Shown here: in pieces, positions 34,119-43,665 of the stretch
Numbering within the stretch: the first letter of the stretch is position 1
Layout: each line of letters begins with the position of its first letter
NCBI GenBank assembly: GCA_024653345.1
Contig: JANLFV010000005.1
Location: 76,951 to 140,950, forward strand
Reading direction: 5' to 3'
Length of the DNA stretch: 64,000 nt
Origin: Candidatus Acetothermia bacterium
GTDB taxonomy: Bacteria; Bipolaricaulota; Bipolaricaulia; RBG-16-55-9; JANLFV01
Made by a program: the position numbers and the translations under genes
Notes under the pieces: model-generated
What the model was told of the DNA's origin: nothing
Databases searched by the model: none
Seen by the model: the letters and a program-made list of their open reading frames with translations, nothing else

Positions 34119-35669
34119 ATGAAACGGGGAGAGGCCAACTTCAAGCGAGTGTCATCGTCCATCCTGCGTAGAGCGCTGCTCGGAGCCCTCTTGGCCGCGC
34201 TCATCGTCGGCTCCGCGGCGACGGTCGTGCTCACGCAGACTGACATCTCCGCGATCGTCGAGCGGGTCCGGCCCGCGGTCGTGGAGATCGTGACCAACAA
34301 GGGCCAAGAGAGCGGGTTCATCATCACCGCGGACGGGGCGGTGCTGACCGCCTACCATGTGGTCAAGGGGGCGACCAGCATCAGGGTCCTCTTGCCGAGC
34401 GGCTCGAGCTACAGCGCCTGGGTGGAGAAATATGATGAGACCTACACCAGCGGCGGCAGTGATGTGGCCCTGCTCCGGATCAGCGCGAGCGGCCTCCCCA
34501 CGGTGAGCTTGGGAGATTCCGATACGGTCAAGATCGGGCAATCCATCATCGTCATGGGCTATCCCCTGGACATGGGGTTCAGCGTCACCAGGGGGATTAT
34601 CAGCAGCCTAGTCGACTTCGGCGGGGGCCGGAAGGTCTTTGTGATCGACGCAGCCGTGAACCCCGGCAACAGCGGCGGGCTGCTCTTGAACGACCAGGGC
34701 CAGGTGATCGGGATCGTCTTCGGCAAGGCCAATGTCCCCGGGATCACGGTCGAGGGGATCAACTTCGCCACGCCCATAAACACCGCGCGGAGGGAGTTGG
34801 GGCTGAGCATGCCCGCGCCGGAGCAGCCGCCGACTACCCCGAGACCGGCAGGAATGGTGCTCATCCCCGCAGGGAGCTTCCAGATGGGGGACAGGTTCAG
34901 CGAGGGCGACTCCGACGAGCGGCCGGTGCACACGGTCTATGTGAGCGCGTTCTATATGGACAAATACGAGGTGACCAAGGCCCTGTGGGACGAGGTGGCG
35001 CGCTGGGCTGCAGCTCATGGATACGACATCATGCCCGAGTGCGGCTCTGGGAAGGGGCCGGACCATCCGGTCTACGATGTCACCTGGTATGAGGTAGTGA
35101 AGTGGCTCAATGCCCGGAGCGAGAAGGAGGGGTTGACGGCCTGCTACTACACGGACAGCACGCAGCGGATGGTCTACCGGACGGGGAACCTGAACCTGTC
35201 GAATGATGCCGTGAAGTGGAGCGGGTGTGGTTATCGGCTGCCGACGGAGGCGGAGTGGGAGAAGGCGGCGCGCGGGGGCTGCGAGGGCCATCGCTTCCCC
35301 TGGCGCGATACGGACACGATCCAGCACAGCCGGGCGAACTACTACAGCAGCTCCGACTACAGCTATGACACGAGCCCGACGCGGGGTTATCACCCCAGCT
35401 ACGCCACGGGTGATTACCCGTATACCAGTCCGGTGGGGAGCTTTGCGGCAAACGGGTATGGGCTCTACGACATCGCGGGGAACGTGTGGGAGTGGGTCTG
35501 GGACCGGTATGACCGAAGCTACTACTCATCCTCGCCCGGGACTGATCCTCGGGGTCCTAATGGAGGCTCGTCCCGCGTGGTACGCGGCGGCAGTTGGGGC
35601 TACGATGCGCCCGCTGCCGGGTTGCGTATCGCGGCCACAGCACGCCCGGCGGCAGCGGCCACTTCATAG
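34119..35669 (+). CDS. exported HtrA-like serine protease fused to an FGE/SUMF1 (C-type lectin fold) domain, frameshifted at the C-terminus
   Basis: The protein has 516 residues as read. A signal or anchor (about 19-40) precedes a trypsin-like protease with the full triad: LTAYHVVKG, SDVALLRI and NPGNSGGLLL (about 45-230). There is no PDZ domain. A Pro-rich linker leads to a formylglycine-generating-enzyme fold (about 245-510): GMVLIPAGSFQMGD, MDKYEVTKALW, YRLPTEAEWEKAARGG, GLYDIAGNVWEWVWD, VVRGGSW. After GGSW the frame is lost by one base near 35610; restored, it ends in IGFRAVRPAGQ at 35701, as in the paralogue at 41155. This final stretch is the candidate DGR variable region. The C-type-lectin end probably binds ligands while the protease acts in the envelope. 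Confidence 0.85.
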   Translation: MKRGEANFKRVSSSILRRALLGALLAALIVGSAATVVLTQTDISAIVERVRPAVVEIVTNKGQESGFIITADGAVLTAYHVVKGATSIRVLLPSGSSYSAWVEKYDETYTSGGSDVALLRISASGLPTVSLGDSDTVKIGQSIIVMGYPLDMGFSVTRGIISSLVDFGGGRKVFVIDAAVNPGNSGGLLLNDQGQVIGIVFGKANVPGITVEGINFATPINTARRELGLSMPAPEQPPTTPRPAGMVLIPAGSFQMGDRFSEGDSDERPVHTVYVSAFYMDKYEVTKALWDEVARWAAAHGYDIMPECGSGKGPDHPVYDVTWYEVVKWLNARSEKEGLTACYYTDSTQRMVYRTGNLNLSNDAVKWSGCGYRLPTEAEWEKAARGGCEGHRFPWRDTDTIQHSRANYYSSSDYSYDTSPTRGYHPSYATGDYPYTSPVGSFAANGYGLYDIAGNVWEWVWDRYDRSYYSSSPGTDPRGPNGGSSRVVRGGSWGYDAPAAGLRIAATARPAAAATS

Positions 35670-35701
35670 GCTTCCGGGCTGTGCGGCCTGCAGGTCAGTG
35701 A
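35581..35701 (+). other. candidate DGR variable region VR1
   Basis: This is the last ~40 codons of the protease-FGE gene, counted in the restored frame. Codons that differ from VR2 are nearly all NNC (GGC, TAC, CGC, CAC, AGC), as expected from AAC in a template. The interspersed GCG, TGC, GTTGCG, CGC, CCC and the final 33 bases to the stop are the same in VR2. Confidence 0.6.
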
Positions 35702-35731
35702 GGTGAGCTGGAGTGAGGCGGAGCGGCTGGT

Positions 35732-35787
35732 TTCAGGTCGAGCAAGCGGAGCGGTCCCGTCCCGGAGGGCGGGATGCGAGACCTGAA
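35732..35787. other. nested hairpin downstream of VR1
   Basis: The outer arms are TTCAGGTC (35732-35739) and GACCTGAA (35780-35787). The inner stem is TCCCG-T-CCC, loop GGA, GGGCGGGA (35755-35774). The copy after VR2 keeps the shape with a compensatory pair change. Confidence 0.6.
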
Positions 35788-35825
35788 GCGGTCGCGGAGC
35801 CGGCTGTTGGATCGTGAGCAAAGCG

Positions 35826-35940
35826 CCGCTCCCCCTCCCATCGGATGGGAGAGGGAAGCCCACAGGGCCGGGTGAGGGCCGCCGGGGCTGGCCGTCGGGC
35901 AGGTGTGCCTGCCATGACGGCAGGACACGCCCCAACGAGA
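35826..35940. repeat. palindromic repeats in the 35702-36033 gap
   Basis: CTCCCATCGGATGGGAG followed by AGGG and GGGTGAGGG belongs to the dispersed family of 13530. GGGCAGGTGTGCCTGCC-ATGA-CGGCAGG (35898-35925) recurs at 36699-36729. The gap has no gene; besides these repeats it holds the VR1 hairpin and a TATAAT at 35990-35995 ahead of the antitoxin gene. Confidence 0.55.
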
Positions 35941-36033
35941 TTGCGGCCTTTGATCGGCAGTGAAGGATGCAGAGCGCTCGTCCATCCCTTATAATGATTG
36001 TGCCGTCTCTAGGATCAACGGAAGGAGTAAGTG

Positions 36034-36231
36034 ATGGCACGTCAAGCAAGTAAAACAGTCACATCCGAAGAGTCTCCTGCTGAGGTCGAGCGCAAGCTGA
36101 AAGCCCTCAAGGAAGTAGCCGGGTTGCTGAGCGACTTGTCTCCCGAGGGAATGAGGGCGTTCTTGGAAGCCGCCAAACGCAGGCCACTCTTCGAGGATGG
36201 GCCTTCCGAGAAATGCCAGACTACCTCTTAG
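36034..36231 (+). CDS. antitoxin-like small protein of a VapBC-type pair
   Basis: The 65-residue charged helical protein begins MARQASKTVTSEESPAEVERKL and contains LKEVAGLLSDLSPEGMRAFLEAAKRRPLF. It overlaps the PIN toxin gene by 19 nt, the usual order of antitoxin before toxin. It has no obvious ribbon-helix-helix or AbrB motif, so the class is open. AAGGAG lies 6-7 nt before the ATG at 36034. Base composition is less GC-rich than the core genes. Confidence 0.65.
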   Translation: MARQASKTVTSEESPAEVERKLKALKEVAGLLSDLSPEGMRAFLEAAKRRPLFEDGPSEKCQTTS

Positions 36232-36617
36232 ATACGAACATTCTCATCGAGATCTTAAGAAACAGCCCCACCGTTCTGGCACATATGAGAGCGGCCATCA
36301 CTGCCGGACGTGATGTGCAGATCAACGCCCTCAGCTATTACGAGACCCGACGCGGCCTGCTTAACACTCTTAGAGCCGATAAGCTCCGCAAGTTCGACGC
36401 CTTTTGCCGGGTATTCGGGATCGTCCATCTCGATCAAGCAGCGCTGGATCGAGCCAGCGAAATCTACGCTGATTTGGAGAAGAAGGGCGAACTGATCGAG
36501 GATGCTGACATTCTCATCGCCGGGATGGCACTGGTCAACCACGCTGTGCTGGTGACCGATGACATAAGCCATTTCAAGCGCGTGGTTGGCTTGGCGCTCG
36601 AAAACTGGATGAAATAG
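36213..36617 (+). CDS. vapC: PIN-domain ribonuclease toxin (VapC-like)
   Basis: The 134-residue PIN protein has the acidic residues in place: YLLDTNILIEIL (first Asp), SYYETRRG (Glu), EDADILIAGMAL (Asp) and VLVTDDISHFKRV (Asp). VapC toxins cut tRNA or rRNA and block translation. The pair with the overlapping upstream antitoxin and the lower GC suggest an acquired module. Confidence 0.9.
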   Translation: MPDYLLDTNILIEILRNSPTVLAHMRAAITAGRDVQINALSYYETRRGLLNTLRADKLRKFDAFCRVFGIVHLDQAALDRASEIYADLEKKGELIEDADILIAGMALVNHAVLVTDDISHFKRVVGLALENWMK

Positions 36618-36698
36618 GAATCGCTCTCGCCTCAAGTAGTCAGGATCGCACGGTCAATCCCGGCGATCACCCCTGGAACCGGCCTGGGGTGCGCGATG

Positions 36699-36729
36699 GG
36701 CAGGTGTGCTTGCCGTAAACGGGCAAGGC
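36699..36729. repeat. hairpin repeat, second copy
   Basis: GGGCAGGTGTGCTTGCC-GTAAAC-GGGCAAGG. Compared with 35898-35925 the loop-proximal stem differs (CTTGCC/GGCAAG instead of CCTGCC/GGCAGG), so pairing is kept. Confidence 0.5.
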
Positions 36730-36740
36730 CTTGATATCCC

Positions 36741-36769
36741 TTGCCCCACTTTACTTCATCAACTATAAT
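36741..36769 (+). promoter_or_regulatory. promoter of the RelBE-type module
   Basis: TTGCCC (36741-36746), 17 bp, TATAAT (36764-36769), 31 nt upstream of the antitoxin start. Confidence 0.6.
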
Positions 36770-36805
36770 GCTCAACGGACGATCCGACACAAGGTGAGGA
36801 TGGCG

Positions 36806-37015
36806 ATGCTGAAGATCAAGAAGCGCTACGTCGTCAATGAGCGCAACGAGCCCGTGGCCGTGCAGCTTGATCTGGAAACCTTCGCCAAGATCGAGCGCCT
36901 GCTGGAAGACTATGCCCTGGGGCAAAGCATAAGAGCAGTCAAAGACGAACGCTCCCTGGATTTGAGAGAGGCCCAGCGGCGCTATGCGCGCCTGAAGAAA
37001 ACCGGCAATGAATGA
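36806..37015 (+). CDS. antitoxin of a RelBE/ParDE-type module
   Basis: The protein has 69 residues. MLKIKKRYVVNERNEPVAVQLDLETFAKIERLLEDY shows the beta-strand plus helix layout of Phd/RelB-like antitoxins, followed by a charged helix that should wrap the toxin. GAGG lies 6 nt before ATG 36806; ATG 36800 is possible. It overlaps the toxin by ATGA, so the two are coupled and probably autoregulated by the complex. Confidence 0.8.
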   Translation: MLKIKKRYVVNERNEPVAVQLDLETFAKIERLLEDYALGQSIRAVKDERSLDLREAQRRYARLKKTGNE

Positions 37016-37290
37016 ACTGGCAAGTTGTCTATAAGCCCACCTTCCTTAGGGAGTTGGCACGACTCCCAGCGGAGGTGCGCGCACGGGTTGAGACCTTTGC
37101 TTTTGAGGTGATGCCCAGGACAACCAATCCCTATGCTCTGTCAGGCGTCGAGAAGCTCAAAGGGTATCGGGAATATTACAAAGTGCGTTTCGGAGACTAT
37201 CGTATTGGCCTCAGGTTCGACAAGAAAGCCAAGACAATCGAATTCTGCAGAGTCTTACATCGCCGTGATCTGTATCGTTACTTCCCTTGA
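37012..37290 (+). CDS. relE: RelE/ParE-family toxin
   Basis: The 92-residue protein has WQVVYKPTFLRELARLPAEVR, KLKGYREYYKVRFGDYRIGLRFD and FCRVLHRRDLYRYFP, which fit the RelE fold; basic and Tyr residues near the end are the usual mRNA-cleavage residues of the RelE branch. It probably cleaves ribosome-bound mRNA; a ParE-like gyrase role cannot be excluded. It ends only 15 nt before the mnmA GTG/ATG region. Confidence 0.87.
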   Translation: MNWQVVYKPTFLRELARLPAEVRARVETFAFEVMPRTTNPYALSGVEKLKGYREYYKVRFGDYRIGLRFDKKAKTIEFCRVLHRRDLYRYFP

Positions 37291-37296
37291 TATAAT
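37289..37296 (+). promoter_or_regulatory. extended -10 promoter of mnmA
   Basis: TGATATAAT (TATAAT at 37291-37296) overlaps the relE stop codon. The predicted start near 37303 is 3 nt from the ATG at 37306, so mnmA should be read from a leaderless mRNA. Confidence 0.5.
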
Positions 37297-37305
37297 CTCG
37301 CTGTG

Positions 37306-38373
37306 ATGCGCGTCCTGGTGGCGATGAGCGGTGGGGTCGATTCAAGTGTCGCGGCCCTCCTGCTCAAGAGGGAAGGGCACGAGGTCCTCGGCGCGACCCT
37401 GAACCTCTGGAGCTACGCCGGGCGGCTCGAACCCTACAACAACTGCTGCTCCCTCGAGGTCGCGGCCGTAGCCAAGCAGTTGGGCATCGAGCACCATTTC
37501 CTAGATTATGGCCGGCTCTTCGAGCGGGAGGTCGTCCGCCGGACGATTCAGAAATATCTGCGCGGGCGGACCCCGAACCCCTGCATCTGGTGCAACGCGC
37601 TCGTCCGGTTCCCCGCGCTGTTGGCCGAGGCCGAGCGGCTGGGCTGCGACTACCTCGCCACCGGGCACTATGCCCGGGTCATCAAAGAGAACGGAGTTCA
37701 TCACCTCCTCCGCGGCCGCGACCTCGAGAAGGACCAGTCTTACTTCCTCTACCGGCTCACCCAAAGGGAGCTCGCCAAGCTCATCTTCCCTGTCGGGGAT
37801 TATCTCAAGGAGGAGGTCTTCACCATTGCCAAGGAGTCCGGCCTCCTGGTCAAGCCCCGTGAGAGCCAGGACCTTTGCTTCGTCCCTGATAACGACTATC
37901 GCCGGTTCTTGCTGGACCACTCCAGGGACGGGATCCGGCCGGGCGAGATCGTCGATACCTCGGGCCGGGTCCTGGGCCGGCATGAGGGGCTCCCATTCTA
38001 TACCATCGGCCAGCGGCGGGGCCTGGGGCTCGCCTCGGGCGAGCGGCTCTATGTCCTGGCCCTCGAGCCCGAGCGGAATAGGCTGATCGTCGGCCCGGAG
38101 GAGGCCCTCTACTCCCGCGGCCTGATCGCCTCGGAGGTCAATTGGCTCGGCGGCCCGCCCGGCGCGGGCGAGCTTGAGGTCGAGGTCAAGGTCCGCTATC
38201 GCACCCCTCCGGCGAGGGCGCGGGTCGAGCCCCTCGGCGACGGCCGGGCGCGGGTCATCTTCGCCGAGCCGCAGCGGGCCATCACCCTCGGCCAGGCGGC
38301 CGTCTTCTATCGGGACGAGCGGGTCCTCGGCGGTGGGGTGATCGAGAGAATCTTGAGCGATGCTGAGGCTTAG
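37306..38373 (+). CDS. mnmA: tRNA-specific 2-thiouridylase
   Basis: The 355-residue protein has the PP-loop VLVAMSGGVDSSVAALLL, the catalytic cysteines in NPCIWCNALVRF and RESQDLCFV, LATGHYARV and the C-terminal barrel with FYTIGQRRGLGLASG. It makes 2-thiouridine at position 34 of tRNA-Lys, -Glu and -Gln. ATG 37306 is preferred; GTG 37303 is adjacent. It overlaps the ABC ATPase by 14 nt. Confidence 0.96.
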   Translation: MRVLVAMSGGVDSSVAALLLKREGHEVLGATLNLWSYAGRLEPYNNCCSLEVAAVAKQLGIEHHFLDYGRLFEREVVRRTIQKYLRGRTPNPCIWCNALVRFPALLAEAERLGCDYLATGHYARVIKENGVHHLLRGRDLEKDQSYFLYRLTQRELAKLIFPVGDYLKEEVFTIAKESGLLVKPRESQDLCFVPDNDYRRFLLDHSRDGIRPGEIVDTSGRVLGRHEGLPFYTIGQRRGLGLASGERLYVLALEPERNRLIVGPEEALYSRGLIASEVNWLGGPPGAGELEVEVKVRYRTPPARARVEPLGDGRARVIFAEPQRAITLGQAAVFYRDERVLGGGVIERILSDAEA

Positions 38374-39112
38374 CGGGATCGAGAAGGGCATCCTCCGGAA
38401 TGGCCTCCCCCTCAAGGTCCTCGCCGGGCTCGACCTCGAGGTCGGGGAGGGGGAGTTCGTCTCGCTCCTCGGGCCGAGCGGCTGCGGGAAGACGACCCTA
38501 CTCAACATCGTCGCCGGGCTCATCCGGCCCGACTCGGGGCGGATCTTCTTCAACGGGCGGGAGGTCTCGAGCTGCCGCGGCCATGTAGCCTACATGCAGC
38601 AAGACGACCTTCTCTTGCCCTGGCGGACGGCCCTGGAGAACGCCATTCTCGGGCCGGAGCTGAAGGGGGCCGATCTCCACCGGGCACGGCACGAGGCCGA
38701 GGGGCTCTTCCACCGCTTCGGGCTCGAAGGCTTCGAGGACCACTACCCCGCGGAGCTCTCGGGCGGGATGCGCCAGCGGGTGGCCCTGATCCGGACCTTG
38801 CTCACCGGGAAGAGGCTCTTCCTCCTCGATGAGCCCTTCGGCTCGCTCGATGCCATGACCCGCTCCGTCCTCCACCGCTACCTCCTCGGGGTCTTTGAGG
38901 AGTTCGAGAAGACGATCCTCTTCGTCACCCACGACCTGGAGGAGGCCCTCCTCCTCTCCGATCGGGTCTATCTTCTCACCGCCCGGCCCGCCCGGGTCAA
39001 GGCCCTCCTCGAGGTCCCGCTCCCCAGGCCGCGGGACCGCGGAGAGCCCAGGTTCATCCGGCTGGAGCGGGAGCTCGAGCGCTTGGTCCAGGAGGAGCTC
39101 CATGTGGCCTAA
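38360..39112 (+). CDS. ABC transporter ATP-binding protein (NitT/TauT type)
   Basis: The 250-residue protein has Walker A GPSGCGKTTLLN, a Q-loop in VAYMQQDDLLLPWRTALEN, signature ELSGGMRQRVALIR, Walker B LFLLDEPFGSLD and switch VTHDLEEALLLSDRV. The DDLLLPWRT and EEALLLSDRVYLL motifs mark the nitrate/sulfonate/thiamine-precursor import class. It overlaps both mnmA and the permease. No periplasmic binding protein follows. Confidence 0.92.
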   Translation: MLRLSGIEKGILRNGLPLKVLAGLDLEVGEGEFVSLLGPSGCGKTTLLNIVAGLIRPDSGRIFFNGREVSSCRGHVAYMQQDDLLLPWRTALENAILGPELKGADLHRARHEAEGLFHRFGLEGFEDHYPAELSGGMRQRVALIRTLLTGKRLFLLDEPFGSLDAMTRSVLHRYLLGVFEEFEKTILFVTHDLEEALLLSDRVYLLTARPARVKALLEVPLPRPRDRGEPRFIRLERELERLVQEELHVA

Positions 39113-39860
39113 GGCTCGAGATTACCTCCCTCCGCTCGGGCTCCTCCTCGCCCTCTTTGGGCTCTGGGAGCTGGTGGCCTGGCGGCTCGAATTGCCCTTC
39201 ATCCTCCCCGCCCCGAGCGCGATCTTCATCAGGATGGCCTCGGACTGGCTCCTCCTCCTCCGCCATGCCTTAGTGACGCTTGAGGAGGTCCTCTTGGGGC
39301 TCGCGATCGCCTTTATTTTCGGGCTCGCCCTGGCCTTGCTCATCTTCCACTCCAAGACCCTCGAGCGGGCCATCTATCCCCTGGTCATCGCCGTCCAGAA
39401 TGTCCCGGTCTTCGCGATCGCCCCGATCCTGGTCCTCTGGCTCGGCTATGGCCTCTTCTCGAAGGTGGCCGTGGCCGCGTTGATCATCTTCTTCCCGCTG
39501 GTGGTGAACACCGTCGACGGGCTTCGCTCGACCGATCGCGGGCTCGTGGACTTATTCAGGGTGCTTGAGGCCAGCCGGGGCCAGCTCCTCCTCAAGCTCC
39601 ATTTGCCCCACGCACTACCGTTCATCCTCTCCGGCTGCAAGGTCGGGGTCACCCTCGCGGTCGTCGGCGCTGTCATTGGCGAGTGGGTCGGCTCGAACGC
39701 CGGCTTAGGCTTCCTGATGGTCCAGGCGAACGCCCGGCTCAAGATTGATCTTCTATTTGCGGCCATCTTCTGGCTCGCGGCCCTGAGCATCGCGCTCTTC
39801 GGCCTCGTCTCAGCCATCGAGCGGGCGGCGCTGCCGTGGCGGAGGGTTGGACAGGGATGA
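39102..39860 (+). CDS. ABC transporter permease (NitT/TauT type)
   Basis: The 252-residue protein has about six membrane helices and the BPD inner-membrane motif ending in LPHALPFILSGCKVGVTLAVVGAVIGEWVG. It pairs with the ATPase it overlaps by 11 nt; AGGAGG lies 6-7 nt before the ATG. The usual third gene, a secreted binding protein, is absent; downstream are 217 bp without a clear gene and then a decayed gene. The substrate is unknown. Confidence 0.9.
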   Translation: MWPKARDYLPPLGLLLALFGLWELVAWRLELPFILPAPSAIFIRMASDWLLLLRHALVTLEEVLLGLAIAFIFGLALALLIFHSKTLERAIYPLVIAVQNVPVFAIAPILVLWLGYGLFSKVAVAALIIFFPLVVNTVDGLRSTDRGLVDLFRVLEASRGQLLLKLHLPHALPFILSGCKVGVTLAVVGAVIGEWVGSNAGLGFLMVQANARLKIDLLFAAIFWLAALSIALFGLVSAIERAALPWRRVGQG

Positions 39861-40077
39861 GCAGAAGCGAGCTGCTACTTTGTCAGGGAAGAGGAGAGTG
39901 TGCTATGATGACTTTGTCGCCCGTTCTGGCTGAAGTGGGCCGGGAGAGGGCCAGGCAGAGAGGGTTGAAGCGCTAGCGGTAAAGTTCATCCCTTTGTGGC
40001 GGCAGACTTAAGACACAACTGGAGTGAAGCTCCCTTCCTTCCCCGCCCGAGCCCGTTGGGCCGCAAAAGGAGGTTCT

Positions 40078-40312
40078 ATGCGCATCGCAAAGCTTATCGG
40101 GACCGGCGCGGCCTTGGGGCTTCTAGCCCTTCTCATCTTAGCTGCGGGGGAATGGCAGACAAAGTGGGTTAGCCCAGGGTTGCACCGTTAATTCTGTCAT
40201 CTGTTTGGCTGAGGGCAGTTGGCAGGAGAACCTCACGATCAGAACGGACAACCTGATCATGCGTGGGCAGGGACCCAGCCGGACCTTCGTGACTGGTTCG
40301 TTCCTGATTTAA
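40078..40312 (+). pseudogene. decayed 5' part of a beta-helix-FGE gene
   Basis: AAAAGGAGG precedes an ATG that opens a clean signal peptide (MRIAKLIGTGAALGLLALLILAA), but this frame stops at 40191. The +1 frame, entered at a run of five G, continues GCTVNSVICLAEGSWQENL, RTDNLIMRGQGPSRTF and then a TAA at 40310-40312. That frame then runs without break into VAGQFTVESLTLQSS and the FGE domain. These phrases are the first coils of a parallel beta-helix. The original product was probably signal peptide, beta-helix, then FGE domain. Confidence 0.65.
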
Positions 40313-41155
40313 GTGGCCGGCCAATTCACTGTGGAAAGCCTGACTCTCCAGAGTAGTGTGGCCGGGGCAGCGCCGTCAGGGATGGTGCTGATCCCGGCGG
40401 GGAGCTTCGAGATGGGGGACAGCTTCGGCGAGGGGGACCCCGACGAGCGGCCCGTGCACAAGGTCTTTGTGAGCGCGTTCTACATGGACAAGTATGAGGT
40501 GACCAAGGCCCTGTGGGACGAGGTGGCCAACTGGGCGGCGGTGCACGGCTACGACATCGGGCCGAGTAGCGGTTCAGGAAATGGGGCAAACCACCCGGTC
40601 ACCGACGTGTCGTGGTATGAGGCGGTGAAATGGGCCAATGCGCGTAGTGAGAGGGAAGGCTTGACGCCGTGCTACTACACCAGTTCAAGCCAATCCACGG
40701 TCTACCGGACGGGGGGTGTGGATGTGCCGATAGAGTGCGTGAAGTGGAGTGGGTGCGGGTGTCGGTTGCCGACGGAGGCGGAGTGGGAGAAGGCCGCAAG
40801 AGGCGGCTTATCAGGCCAGCGCTACCCGTGGGGCAATGACATCGACTGTGCGAGAGCCAATTACTACCCTTGCGTTGGTAACACGACCCCGGTGGGGAGC
40901 TACCCGCCTAATGGGTATGGGCTCTACGACATGGCAGGGAACGTGTGGGAGTGGGTGTGGGACTGGCACGACTCGGGTTATTACTCGCGTTCGCCGGAGG
41001 CTGACCCCCGTGGCCCGGCGTCGGGCTCGTTCCGCGTGTTACGCGGCGGCAGTTGGTTCATCATCGCGTCCTACTGCCAGGTTGCGACTCGCGGCGGCGG
41101 CGCGCCCGGCCGCGCCTGCATGGGCTTCCGGGCTGTGCGGCCTGCAGGTCAGTGA
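40313..41155 (+). CDS. FGE/SUMF1 (C-type lectin fold) domain protein, remnant of a larger gene
   Basis: The frame gives 280 residues from GTG 40313 and is closely related to the FGE half of the gene at 34119: GMVLIPAGSFEMGD, MDKYEVTKALWDEVA, CRLPTEAEWEKAARGG, GLYDMAGNVWEWVWD, VLRGGSW, GFRAVRPAGQ. The reading frame is intact to the end. There is no signal peptide of its own; the upstream signal is out of frame, so it may not be made or exported. The last codons form VR2. Confidence 0.75.
   Translation: MAGQFTVESLTLQSSVAGAAPSGMVLIPAGSFEMGDSFGEGDPDERPVHKVFVSAFYMDKYEVTKALWDEVANWAAVHGYDIGPSSGSGNGANHPVTDVSWYEAVKWANARSEREGLTPCYYTSSSQSTVYRTGGVDVPIECVKWSGCGCRLPTEAEWEKAARGGLSGQRYPWGNDIDCARANYYPCVGNTTPVGSYPPNGYGLYDMAGNVWEWVWDWHDSGYYSRSPEADPRGPASGSFRVLRGGSWFIIASYCQVATRGGGAPGRACMGFRAVRPAGQ
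41041..41155 (+). other. candidate DGR variable region VR2
   Basis: After GGSW, variable codons are TTC, ATC, ATC, TCC, TAC, ACT, GGC (x3), GGC, CGC, GCC, TGC and ATG. Against VR1 nearly all differences can be explained by an A in a common template (for example AAT giving TAT/ACT, CAG/CGG, ACG/GCG, ATA/ATG). VR2 is two codons shorter in the last block. Confidence 0.6.
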
Positions 41156-41179
41156 GGTGAGCTGAGGCGGAGCGGCGGA

Positions 41180-41234
41180 TTCCGGTCGAGCCAGCGGAGC
41201 GGTCCCGCCCGGAGGGCGGGAGGCGAGACCGGAA
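41180..41234. other. nested hairpin downstream of VR2
   Basis: The outer arms are TTCCGGTC (41180-41187) and GACCGGAA (41227-41234). The inner stem is a perfect TCCCGCCC, loop GGA, GGGCGGGA (41203-41221). Compared with VR1 an A-T pair has become C-G. Confidence 0.6.
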
Positions 41235-41296
41235 GCGGACGCGGAGCTGGGGCTTTCGCCTCGTGAGGACAGCGCCCTAGATAGGTGCACAGAATA

Positions 41297-41613: not shown

Positions 41614-43527
41614 CTATTTCTCTCCGGCCAACTCCGAGACCATCCGCTCCAGCGCCTCCAGCCGGGATCGCAAGTCCTCGACCTCTTGGGTCAGGCGCGC
41701 AATCTGCTCGTCCTTCTCCAGGCTGAGCTGGTAGAGGGCCTGGATGGAGATGAGCGCGATCCCATCAGCGTCGCTGCTGTTGATGTAGCGCTCGCTCTCC
41801 CCCAGGCCGAAGGCGGCGTAGAAGTCCTGGGCCATCGGCCCGATGTGCCGGATCGAGGGGTCCTGGGACCTCATGTTCCACTCGCTGATCGGGATCTGGC
41901 TCAGCCTCTCGAGGATCAGCCGCCCGTCGACGGGACTGAAGTTCTCCTTCAGCTCGCGGTCGCTGATCGCGGACCAGGCGTTCGAGCCAGGGGTGAGGTA
42001 AACTCCGGCCGTAGGTTTGCCTGTCCCATCGACTGCGGAGACGAACCGCGCCCCGCCGGTGGAGCGGACGCTGAATTCGTTGGCTGCCGTGGACTCGAAA
42101 TAGAAGCCAGTTAGGTGATCAGCCCACACGAAGCTCCCATCATGATTTGCTTTGGCTTGGGTTCCGGCGGCAAAGGATGCTACGCCAGCAGCGAGGTTCC
42201 CTGAGCCCCCACAAGCTGTGGATGCTTCACCATTGGCAGCATTGCCAGTGCCGCCGCAGACTGTAGCGACTTCTCCGTTCGTTCTGTTCCCCGAGCCTCC
42301 ACTTATGGTAGATACTGAACCGATGGCAATATTGGCATCACCGCCGCAGATTGTTGCCAAGACTCCGCTCACTGTGTTCTTCGCGCCCCCACCTATTGTC
42401 CCCCAATGAGCTGTCACCTCGTTGTAGCATGGAGGGTCCACACAGATAGCTGCCCCACCCCCGGCGATTGTGGCCCCTTCGACCCCCGGATCGACGCTGT
42501 TCAGGCGGAACCCGCCGATGATGTTCGGCGAGGCAGCAGGCTCAATCCGCAGTGCCCTGTAGTTGTTCACCCGGATCTCCAGAGCCACATTGTCGGTGGT
42601 GCCGAGGAAGTTGGTGGTTGGGTCGGTGCCGGCATTACCGGTGAGCGACCAGGCTCCGCCGGTGGCCACTGGCTCACAAGTCACGGTCCCGTCGGCGTTG
42701 ATGACCCGGATCGCGTTCCCCGAGGAGCATGAGCCGGTAACTCGGCGCTGGATCTGTGTCGTATCCACATCCTCTGCTGCGATGCTGCCGTTGACGATCT
42801 TGCTCGAGTCCACCGAGTTCCCGGCGAGCATGGCGAGCGTGATCCCGCCATTGGCCACGCTGAAGGTCGTGCCGACGAGGCTGAGGCCCGCGCCCGCGGA
42901 GTAGGTGGTGTCGCTGTCTGCCGAACAAATCCAGTCGGTGCCATTCCACTTCAGGACTTGGCCGGTGGAGCAGCCGGTGAGAAGGCTCAGGGTTACATCC
43001 CCGCTCGTCCCGCCCCCACTCAACCCCAACCCGGCGAGCACGGCGGTGATGTCGCCCCCGCCCATGGGCTGGCAGGCCACCGTCCCGTCCTCGCCGATCT
43101 CCCGGATGGCATTCCCTACTGAGCAAGTGCCCGTCACCCGCCGCTGGACCTCCGCGGTGTTCACATCTGCAGCGCCGAGGCTCCCATCCACGACCTTGCC
43201 CGAGTTCACCGAGTTCGCGCCCAGTTTGCTGGCAGTGACCGATCCGTCGGCGATCGCTGCCTCCTTCACGCAACCAGTGCAGACGATCTCGCTCTCCAGC
43301 TTGAGGTTCCCCACCACATGGAGCTTCTCCGCGGGGTTGGCTGTCCCGATCCCAACTCGATCGGTGATCGTGGTCAGCCGGACCACCGTCCCATCATCCG
43401 TCCAGCCACCACCCACTGCGGTCCCGCCCCCTGCGGGCGGCGCGGGATACTCGCAGGAGACCAAGATAGCCCCCAGGACGAGGATCAGGCCGAAGGCCAG
43501 AAAGAGCCGAAAAGCCGTGCCTCTCAT
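41614..43527 (-). CDS. lipoprotein with tail-fibre/YadA-like repeats and an S74 intramolecular chaperone domain
   Basis: In this 637-residue protein a lipobox (GAILVSC) is followed by a low-complexity stalk with two copies of an RRVTGxCSxGNAIR...DGTV module and [20 protein letters not shown]-type repeats. Next come YadA-head-like GGSGN/GGTGN turns (about 380-470) and a C-terminal Peptidase_S74 domain with [21 protein letters not shown] and [17 protein letters not shown] coiled coil of about 40 residues ends the chain. S74 domains trimerise and cleave themselves before the Ser of SDxxxK. It is predicted to be a trimeric surface fibre. ATG 43527 has AAAGGAG 5 nt upstream. Confidence 0.87.
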
Positions 43528-43665
43528 CGTTACTCCTTTCCGTATACGCGATTCTGTCTCTGCAGGAGAATCTTGCTGGAAGAGCCTCTCACCTCCGAAC
43601 TCCTCTTTCGCCAAATCTTTAGACCGCTCGCCCTTCCACGGCTAAGGAATCGGGTTTTCTTTGAA

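Follow-up and report, generated by a model that had tools for sequence, protein, structure and literature searches.

The variable ends of two FGE-domain genes in a Bipolaricaulota genome were almost certainly written by a diversity-generating retroelement whose machinery has probably been lost

Introduction

Two genes in a stretch of DNA from a Candidatus Acetothermia bacterium (phylum Bipolaricaulota; GCA_024653345.1, contig JANLFV010000005.1, positions 76,951 to 140,950) end in FGE domains that differ over a short C-terminal region and then run into an identical tail. We refer to the whole stretch, 64,000 nucleotides long, as the window. An initial annotation took both regions, VR1 and VR2, to be variable regions (VRs) of a diversity-generating retroelement (DGR). 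The locus therefore raises the question of whether a DGR wrote these gene ends and, if so, where its reverse transcriptase (RT) and template repeat (TR) are. The genome is a MAG of 1.71 Mb in 31 contigs, 92% complete.

Results

Both genes (gene 1 and gene 2, W1 and W2 in comparisons) are predicted to encode a C-type-lectin (FGE) fold with the VR at its C-terminus, and the FGE-type ends named in the initial annotation were recovered at both sites as Pfam FGE-sulfatase (Table 1). The protease domain of gene 1 has the triad-type motifs TAYHVV, SDVALL and GNSGGL, with the H, D and S motifs in place. Its N-terminal signal or membrane segment was assigned by eye, and the trypsin-FGE protein is probably exported. 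In the broken 5' part of gene 2, a signal-like start and a beta-helix-like stretch (from ~40178) lie in different frames; the gene matches the Treponema denticola variable protein 2y3c (1e-33). That gene 2 encodes an active formylglycine enzyme was rejected. In the alignment to 6muj, a solved formylglycine-generating enzyme whose aligned cysteines are presumably the active-site pair, the first cysteine is replaced by Ile and only the second is present.

A toxin-antitoxin-like pair lies between the two FGE genes, formed by a small ORF (36034-36231) and a PIN-domain protein (36213-36617; Pfam PIN 3e-11). A second small pair, named by eye, consists of a 71-aa antitoxin-like ORF (36800-37015) and a 92-aa RelE-like ORF (37012-37290). 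The neighbor of gene 2 (41614-43614, minus strand) is a 666-aa protein, possibly a surface protein, with a C-terminal Peptidase_S74 (endosialidase chaperone) domain.

Table 1. Features of the two FGE loci (positions in the window)
Feature	Position	Strand	Evidence
Gene 1: signal/TM-like N-terminus, trypsin-like (HtrA-type) protease, FGE/C-type-lectin domain	34119-35669	+	Trypsin_2 5e-30; FGE 9e-51
VR1, 71 bases from TGG to tail; one base short against VR2 and external templates	35598-35668	+	codon alignment
Tail A of gene 1 (IMH-like; GFRAVRPAGQ* outside the gene's current frame)	35669-35710	+	identical to 41123-41164
Two-part hairpin after gene 1: outer arms TTTCAGGTC/GACCTGAA, inner TCCCGTCCCGGAGGGCGGGA (35755-35774)	35731-35787	+	z -3.1
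Possible decayed copy of tail B behind gene 1 hairpin	35802-35827	+	weak
Gene 2, broken 5' part, stop TAA 40310-40312 in frame	40079-40312	+	
Gene 2, open FGE/C-type-lectin frame, 280 aa, downstream of TAA stop	40313-41155	+	FGE 8e-58
VR2, 66 bases from TGG to tail	41057-41122	+	codon alignment
Tail A of gene 2 (IMH-like), GFRAVRPAGQ*	41123-41164	+	identical to gene 1 tail
Hairpin after gene 2: outer arms TTCCGGTC/GACCGGAA, inner TCCCGCCC-GGA-GGGCGGGA (41203-41221)	41180-41234	+	z -3.5
Leftover tail B, GGCTTTCGCCTCGTGAGGACAGCGCCCTAG = GFRLVRTAP*	41251-41280	+	behind gene 2 hairpin

The DNA of the two genes, for which the codon alignment was made by hand, falls into three zones. The FGE bodies are ~71-87% alike, a length-variable middle excepted, the VRs are clearly less alike than the bodies, and 42 identical bases are then followed by a ~88% alike 3' non-coding stretch that ends near 35810 in gene 1 and 41270 in gene 2. 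The identity of the GFRAVRPAGQ tail was thus seen correctly at first, though its length is 42 bases rather than 33. The fixed triplets and NNC codons recurring in both VRs and the T/C difference at 35606 were all confirmed. VR1 does have the two extra codons previously noted, but is also one base short, so the difference in length from TGG to tail is +6 and -1.

VR1 and VR2 differ at 10/21 first, 9/22 second and 2/22 third codon positions, against rates of 21%, 16% and 40% in the FGE bodies. Third positions differ at 2/33 sites in VR plus tail vs 91/228 in the body (P=3.7e-5), and positions 1 and 2 combined at 19/43 in the VR vs 83/456 (P=1.9e-4). Differences spread evenly over all bases, which the initial annotation had named as contrary to its reading, are clearly not what is found. 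Written as counts at positions 1, 2 and 3, the W1/W2 pair is [10,9,2], and DGR-like pairs in other genomes give [9,8,1], [12,11,2], [8,12,3] and [7,12,2]; non-DGR FGE pairs of the same class have the reverse pattern, [2,2,14], [4,2,15], [12,14,21] and [12,11,17]. Changed first and second positions with spared third positions point to a common template copied with scrambled adenines, and would not be expected from conversion or selection alone.

Because there is no template in the window's genome, TRs of related Bipolaricaulota DGRs were used as outside yardsticks. VR1/VR2 differences fall on 16 of 23 adenine columns and 5 of 42 others when read against the TR of genome G065 (P 3.6e-6), and on 17 of 24 and 4 of 41 against that of G044 (P 6e-7), the template base at each VR site being borrowed from other families. 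By both yardsticks the differences are for the most part confined to template adenines, as the initial annotation had proposed for the differing codons. Comparing a single sequence with a template is a weaker test, in which two non-DGR controls also reach P ~1e-3, because the adenine columns coincide with positions that the structure leaves free. The DGR family is distinguished by how seldom it mismatches the G065 TR outside the A columns (2-13 of ~55 vs 25-32 in controls).

Three genomes, all of one genus, yielded DGR RTs: G065, G031 and G044. Contig 66 of G065 (L061) carries a complete DGR, in the order FGE target (trypsin/beta-helix/FGE, VR at 2191), hairpin (2338-2360), HRDC-domain accessory gene (1.7e-20), RT and TR (3984), and 16 of its 18 TR/VR mismatches are at template A. 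The closest solved relative of the RT is 8ub7 (1.6e-43; labeled only 'Reverse transcriptase' in the output), which we take to be the BPP-1 DGR RT. It shares with the two window targets their family, the type of tail and the hairpin that follows the stop. Tail A, the putative IMH of the window targets, is identical in both genes and homologous to the VR/TR end in G065. G031 has a near-identical element with the hairpin absent; on our reading of the two sequences, it may have been deleted between short CGCGG repeats. G044 has a second DGR type, with a different tail, tail B, and 18 of 20 mismatches at A (80-base comparison). All three DGRs of this genus (L061, L062 and L063) have HRDC-type accessory genes, HRDC being a known DGR accessory domain (PMC10053308). 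Frame changes also occur in the L061 target and in the L063 accessory gene and RT. Among viral contigs, relatives of the G065 RT abound: 291 stretches were matched, of which the best 80 are 33-49% identical. RTs in G002, G005, G010, G019, G023, G024, G047, G059 and others are ~25-31% identical to the DGR RT, with one short stretch at 39%, and were taken as other kinds; no adenine-biased repeat pair was found near the members tested.

A two-part inverted repeat follows the stop of each of the two FGE genes. Its outer stem changes between the genes with compensation, and the inner hairpin, closed by GGA in gene 2, has a bulge or wobble in gene 1. Across four loci the hairpin z scores run from -3.1 to -5.4. 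A hairpin or cruciform downstream of the VR is thus present, with a loop and spacing that deviate from the phage consensus. Guo et al. (PMC3240598) report that efficient homing in BPP-1 depends on a hairpin of this kind. Among 84,980 species genomes, the 23-mer of the hairpin core occurs in only two contigs (G098 and G065), both times behind FGE VRs. A common dispersed repeat was rejected as an explanation, given two copies in the window's own genome and two matches in all genomes. Neither the exact 23-mer nor the exact tail A (26-mer) was found in viral contigs. By eye, a GC-rich hairpin closed by a GGTA loop is seen downstream of the target at the tail-B loci L119, L060 and L063, in L119 ~35 bases after the stop. 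Such a loop agrees with the GRNA rule for DGR targets.

Gene 2 has a second tail behind its hairpin. The first part of GGCTTTCGCCTCGTGAGGACAGCGCCCTAG, nearly unchanged, is the real FGE gene end in G013, G024, G044 and G059. The order in G098 is like that in the window, namely VR, tail A, hairpin and tail B, whereas in G059, of the same genus as G098, the VR is followed by tail B and the 3' flank, with tail A and hairpin absent. The 3' flanks of these two match in 160/192 aligned columns, and the extra 137 bases of G098 are flanked on both sides by the direct repeat GGCTTTCG. G098 also keeps an accessory-like gene start, MDMRVVTLRY (E 0.04); an RT was not found there. The simplest account of these sequences would be insertion of tail A and hairpin into a tail-B target, with unequal recombination between two target types as the alternative. 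Tail A and hairpin ahead of tail B, together with an insert-free locus in a relative, suggest natural retargeting between DGRs. It is conceivable, although we lean against it, that tail A and hairpin are a portable homing tag of 128-137 bp which, placed after the VR and ahead of the original tail B, switched a target from a tail-B-reading to a tail-A-reading DGR. Laboratory transplant of IMH and hairpin retargets a DGR, and homing-tag insertion, if true, would be its natural counterpart.

The initial annotation saw no RT or template in the window, and this absence extends to the whole assembly. No DGR-type RT was found in the 1.71 Mb, and the non-coding tail copy for which the initial annotation had proposed to search the genome was not there either, the tail being present at the two genes only. 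Lack of both an RT and an A-rich template in a complete genome had been named as speaking against a DGR; both are lacking here, though the genome is incomplete. The HRDC-type accessory gene had no match in the assembly, and nothing above noise resembled accessory remnants downstream of the window FGE genes. The window locus is not a complete DGR, since a search for the RT, the template and the HRDC accessory gene recovered none of them.

The frame of gene 1 is broken within VR1 at alignment codon 5 (~35610), and the missing base makes the gene end at TAG 35667-35669, before the GFRAVRPAGQ tail. Another frame change splits a third FGE paralogue of the genome (contig C28, 75819-76684, minus strand). 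Every FGE gene of the family in this genome, three in all, is therefore broken, and the adjoining genes are intact. Assembly errors are a possible cause of the frameshifts, but would have to hit only these three genes.

In the tree, which is midpoint-rooted and has long branches, the VR-type FGE bodies are a single clade, separate from the other FGE genes of the class (100/98). Within it, W1 joins the other VR-type bodies and W2 is left outside that group (97/97). As the W1 and W2 bodies are not sisters and their tails are identical, the 3' ends appear to have been rewritten after the bodies diverged. VR-type genes are also present in G098, G059, G024, G013 and G002, where no DGR-type RT was recognized. 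In the only same-genus genome examined (73% complete), an FGE homologue was not found.

Discussion

Taken together, the results leave little doubt that a DGR wrote VR1 and VR2. An RT would have copied a template repeat with random bases opposite adenines; tail A (as IMH) and the hairpin downstream of the stop would then have guided the cDNA into each gene in place of its VR. In an earlier step, tail A and hairpin may have been placed ahead of tail B, the tail of another target type. If a DGR was the writer, its machinery was probably lost from the lineage. The RT/template/accessory cassette would later have disappeared, and the targets, an FGE protein and a probably exported trypsin-FGE protein, would now be decaying. 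Because the machinery is not in the assembly and the genes are broken, the locus looks like the remains of a lost system. The initial claim that both regions are DGR targets is thus upheld for their origin by the independent templates, the homologous complete DGRs and the hairpin. It does not carry over to their present state, given that the machinery was not found and the genes are broken. As the 3' non-coding DNA is alike too, cassette transfer may account for part of the homogenization.

The cassette may instead sit in an assembly gap of this 92% complete MAG. A working DGR could then act in trans on VR1 and VR2 as remote targets, its RT, template and accessory gene lying together in the unassembled 8%, or else on a phage or plasmid. 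Trans targets have been reported (PMC10907252), tail A is unchanged over 42 bases in both genes, and with 31 contigs a single gap could hide RT and TR. We nevertheless consider this unlikely, as the 140,950-base contig around both targets is without an RT, all three targets are broken, no contig has a further copy of tail A, and viral contigs lack the exact tail and hairpin. Still less probable, in our view, is that a lineage which never had an RT received the targets by themselves, diversified beforehand, from a relative that carried a DGR. The same-genus genome without an FGE homologue and the position of W2 apart from W1 would agree with such an acquisition. It needs, however, either independent arrivals sharing one tail and hairpin, or a single arrival after which the bodies diverged and the tails did not, and no mobile element was seen around the targets.

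That these are ordinary FGE paralogues shaped by diversifying selection and gene conversion, with no retroelement ever involved, is strongly disfavored and to our mind highly improbable. Surface positions of the fold vary in all FGE proteins, and alike tails and 3' non-coding DNA are what gene conversion would leave. Yet selection would not spare third positions while positions 1 and 2 change by more than 40%, and gene conversion homogenizes every position. The reverse pattern in non-DGR FGE pairs of the class and the membership of close homologues in complete DGRs also argue against it.

We therefore favor former DGR targets whose machinery was lost. Borrowing the templates of relatives offers a way to recognize DGR handiwork after the machinery is gone. 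Complete DGRs and orphaned targets coexist across the ~100 genomes compared, and DGR loss and target re-use become testable in a little-studied phylum. In a literature search of main texts, no paper joining DGRs with Bipolaricaulota or Acetothermia was found.

Isolates of T. denticola without RT and TR keep DGR targets, which have been read as remnants or lone acquisitions (PMC4891356). As there, FGE/C-type-lectin targets with adenine-type VRs are left where the core DGR is missing; unlike there, the phylum is another one, the targets are broken by frameshifts or stops, and a second target tail lies behind the hairpin. The hairpin of BPP-1 has 7-10 bp stems and 4-nt GRNA loops 4-34 bp from the VR (PMC3240598). 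Like it, the structure described here is GC-rich, downstream of the VR and conserved in shape with stem sequence free to vary, but it has an 8 bp inner stem, a 3-nt GGA loop (in W2, G098 and G065), an additional outer stem and more spacing before the inner hairpin. In multicellular bacteria, FGE-domain DGR sensors are linked to trypsin-like effectors (PMC10907252). Here, too, a variable FGE domain is combined with a trypsin-like protease, but the two are fused in one probably exported protein, and an adjacent STAND or MoxR partner was not seen. The DGRs of G065, G031 and G044 differ from the window's genome in having an RT, TR and HRDC accessory gene, none of which was found in the latter. They nonetheless have homologous FGE targets with the same VR layout, and share with the window tail A (G065 and G031), the hairpin (G065), tail B (G044) and, in the G065 target and gene 1, a trypsin-type N-terminus.
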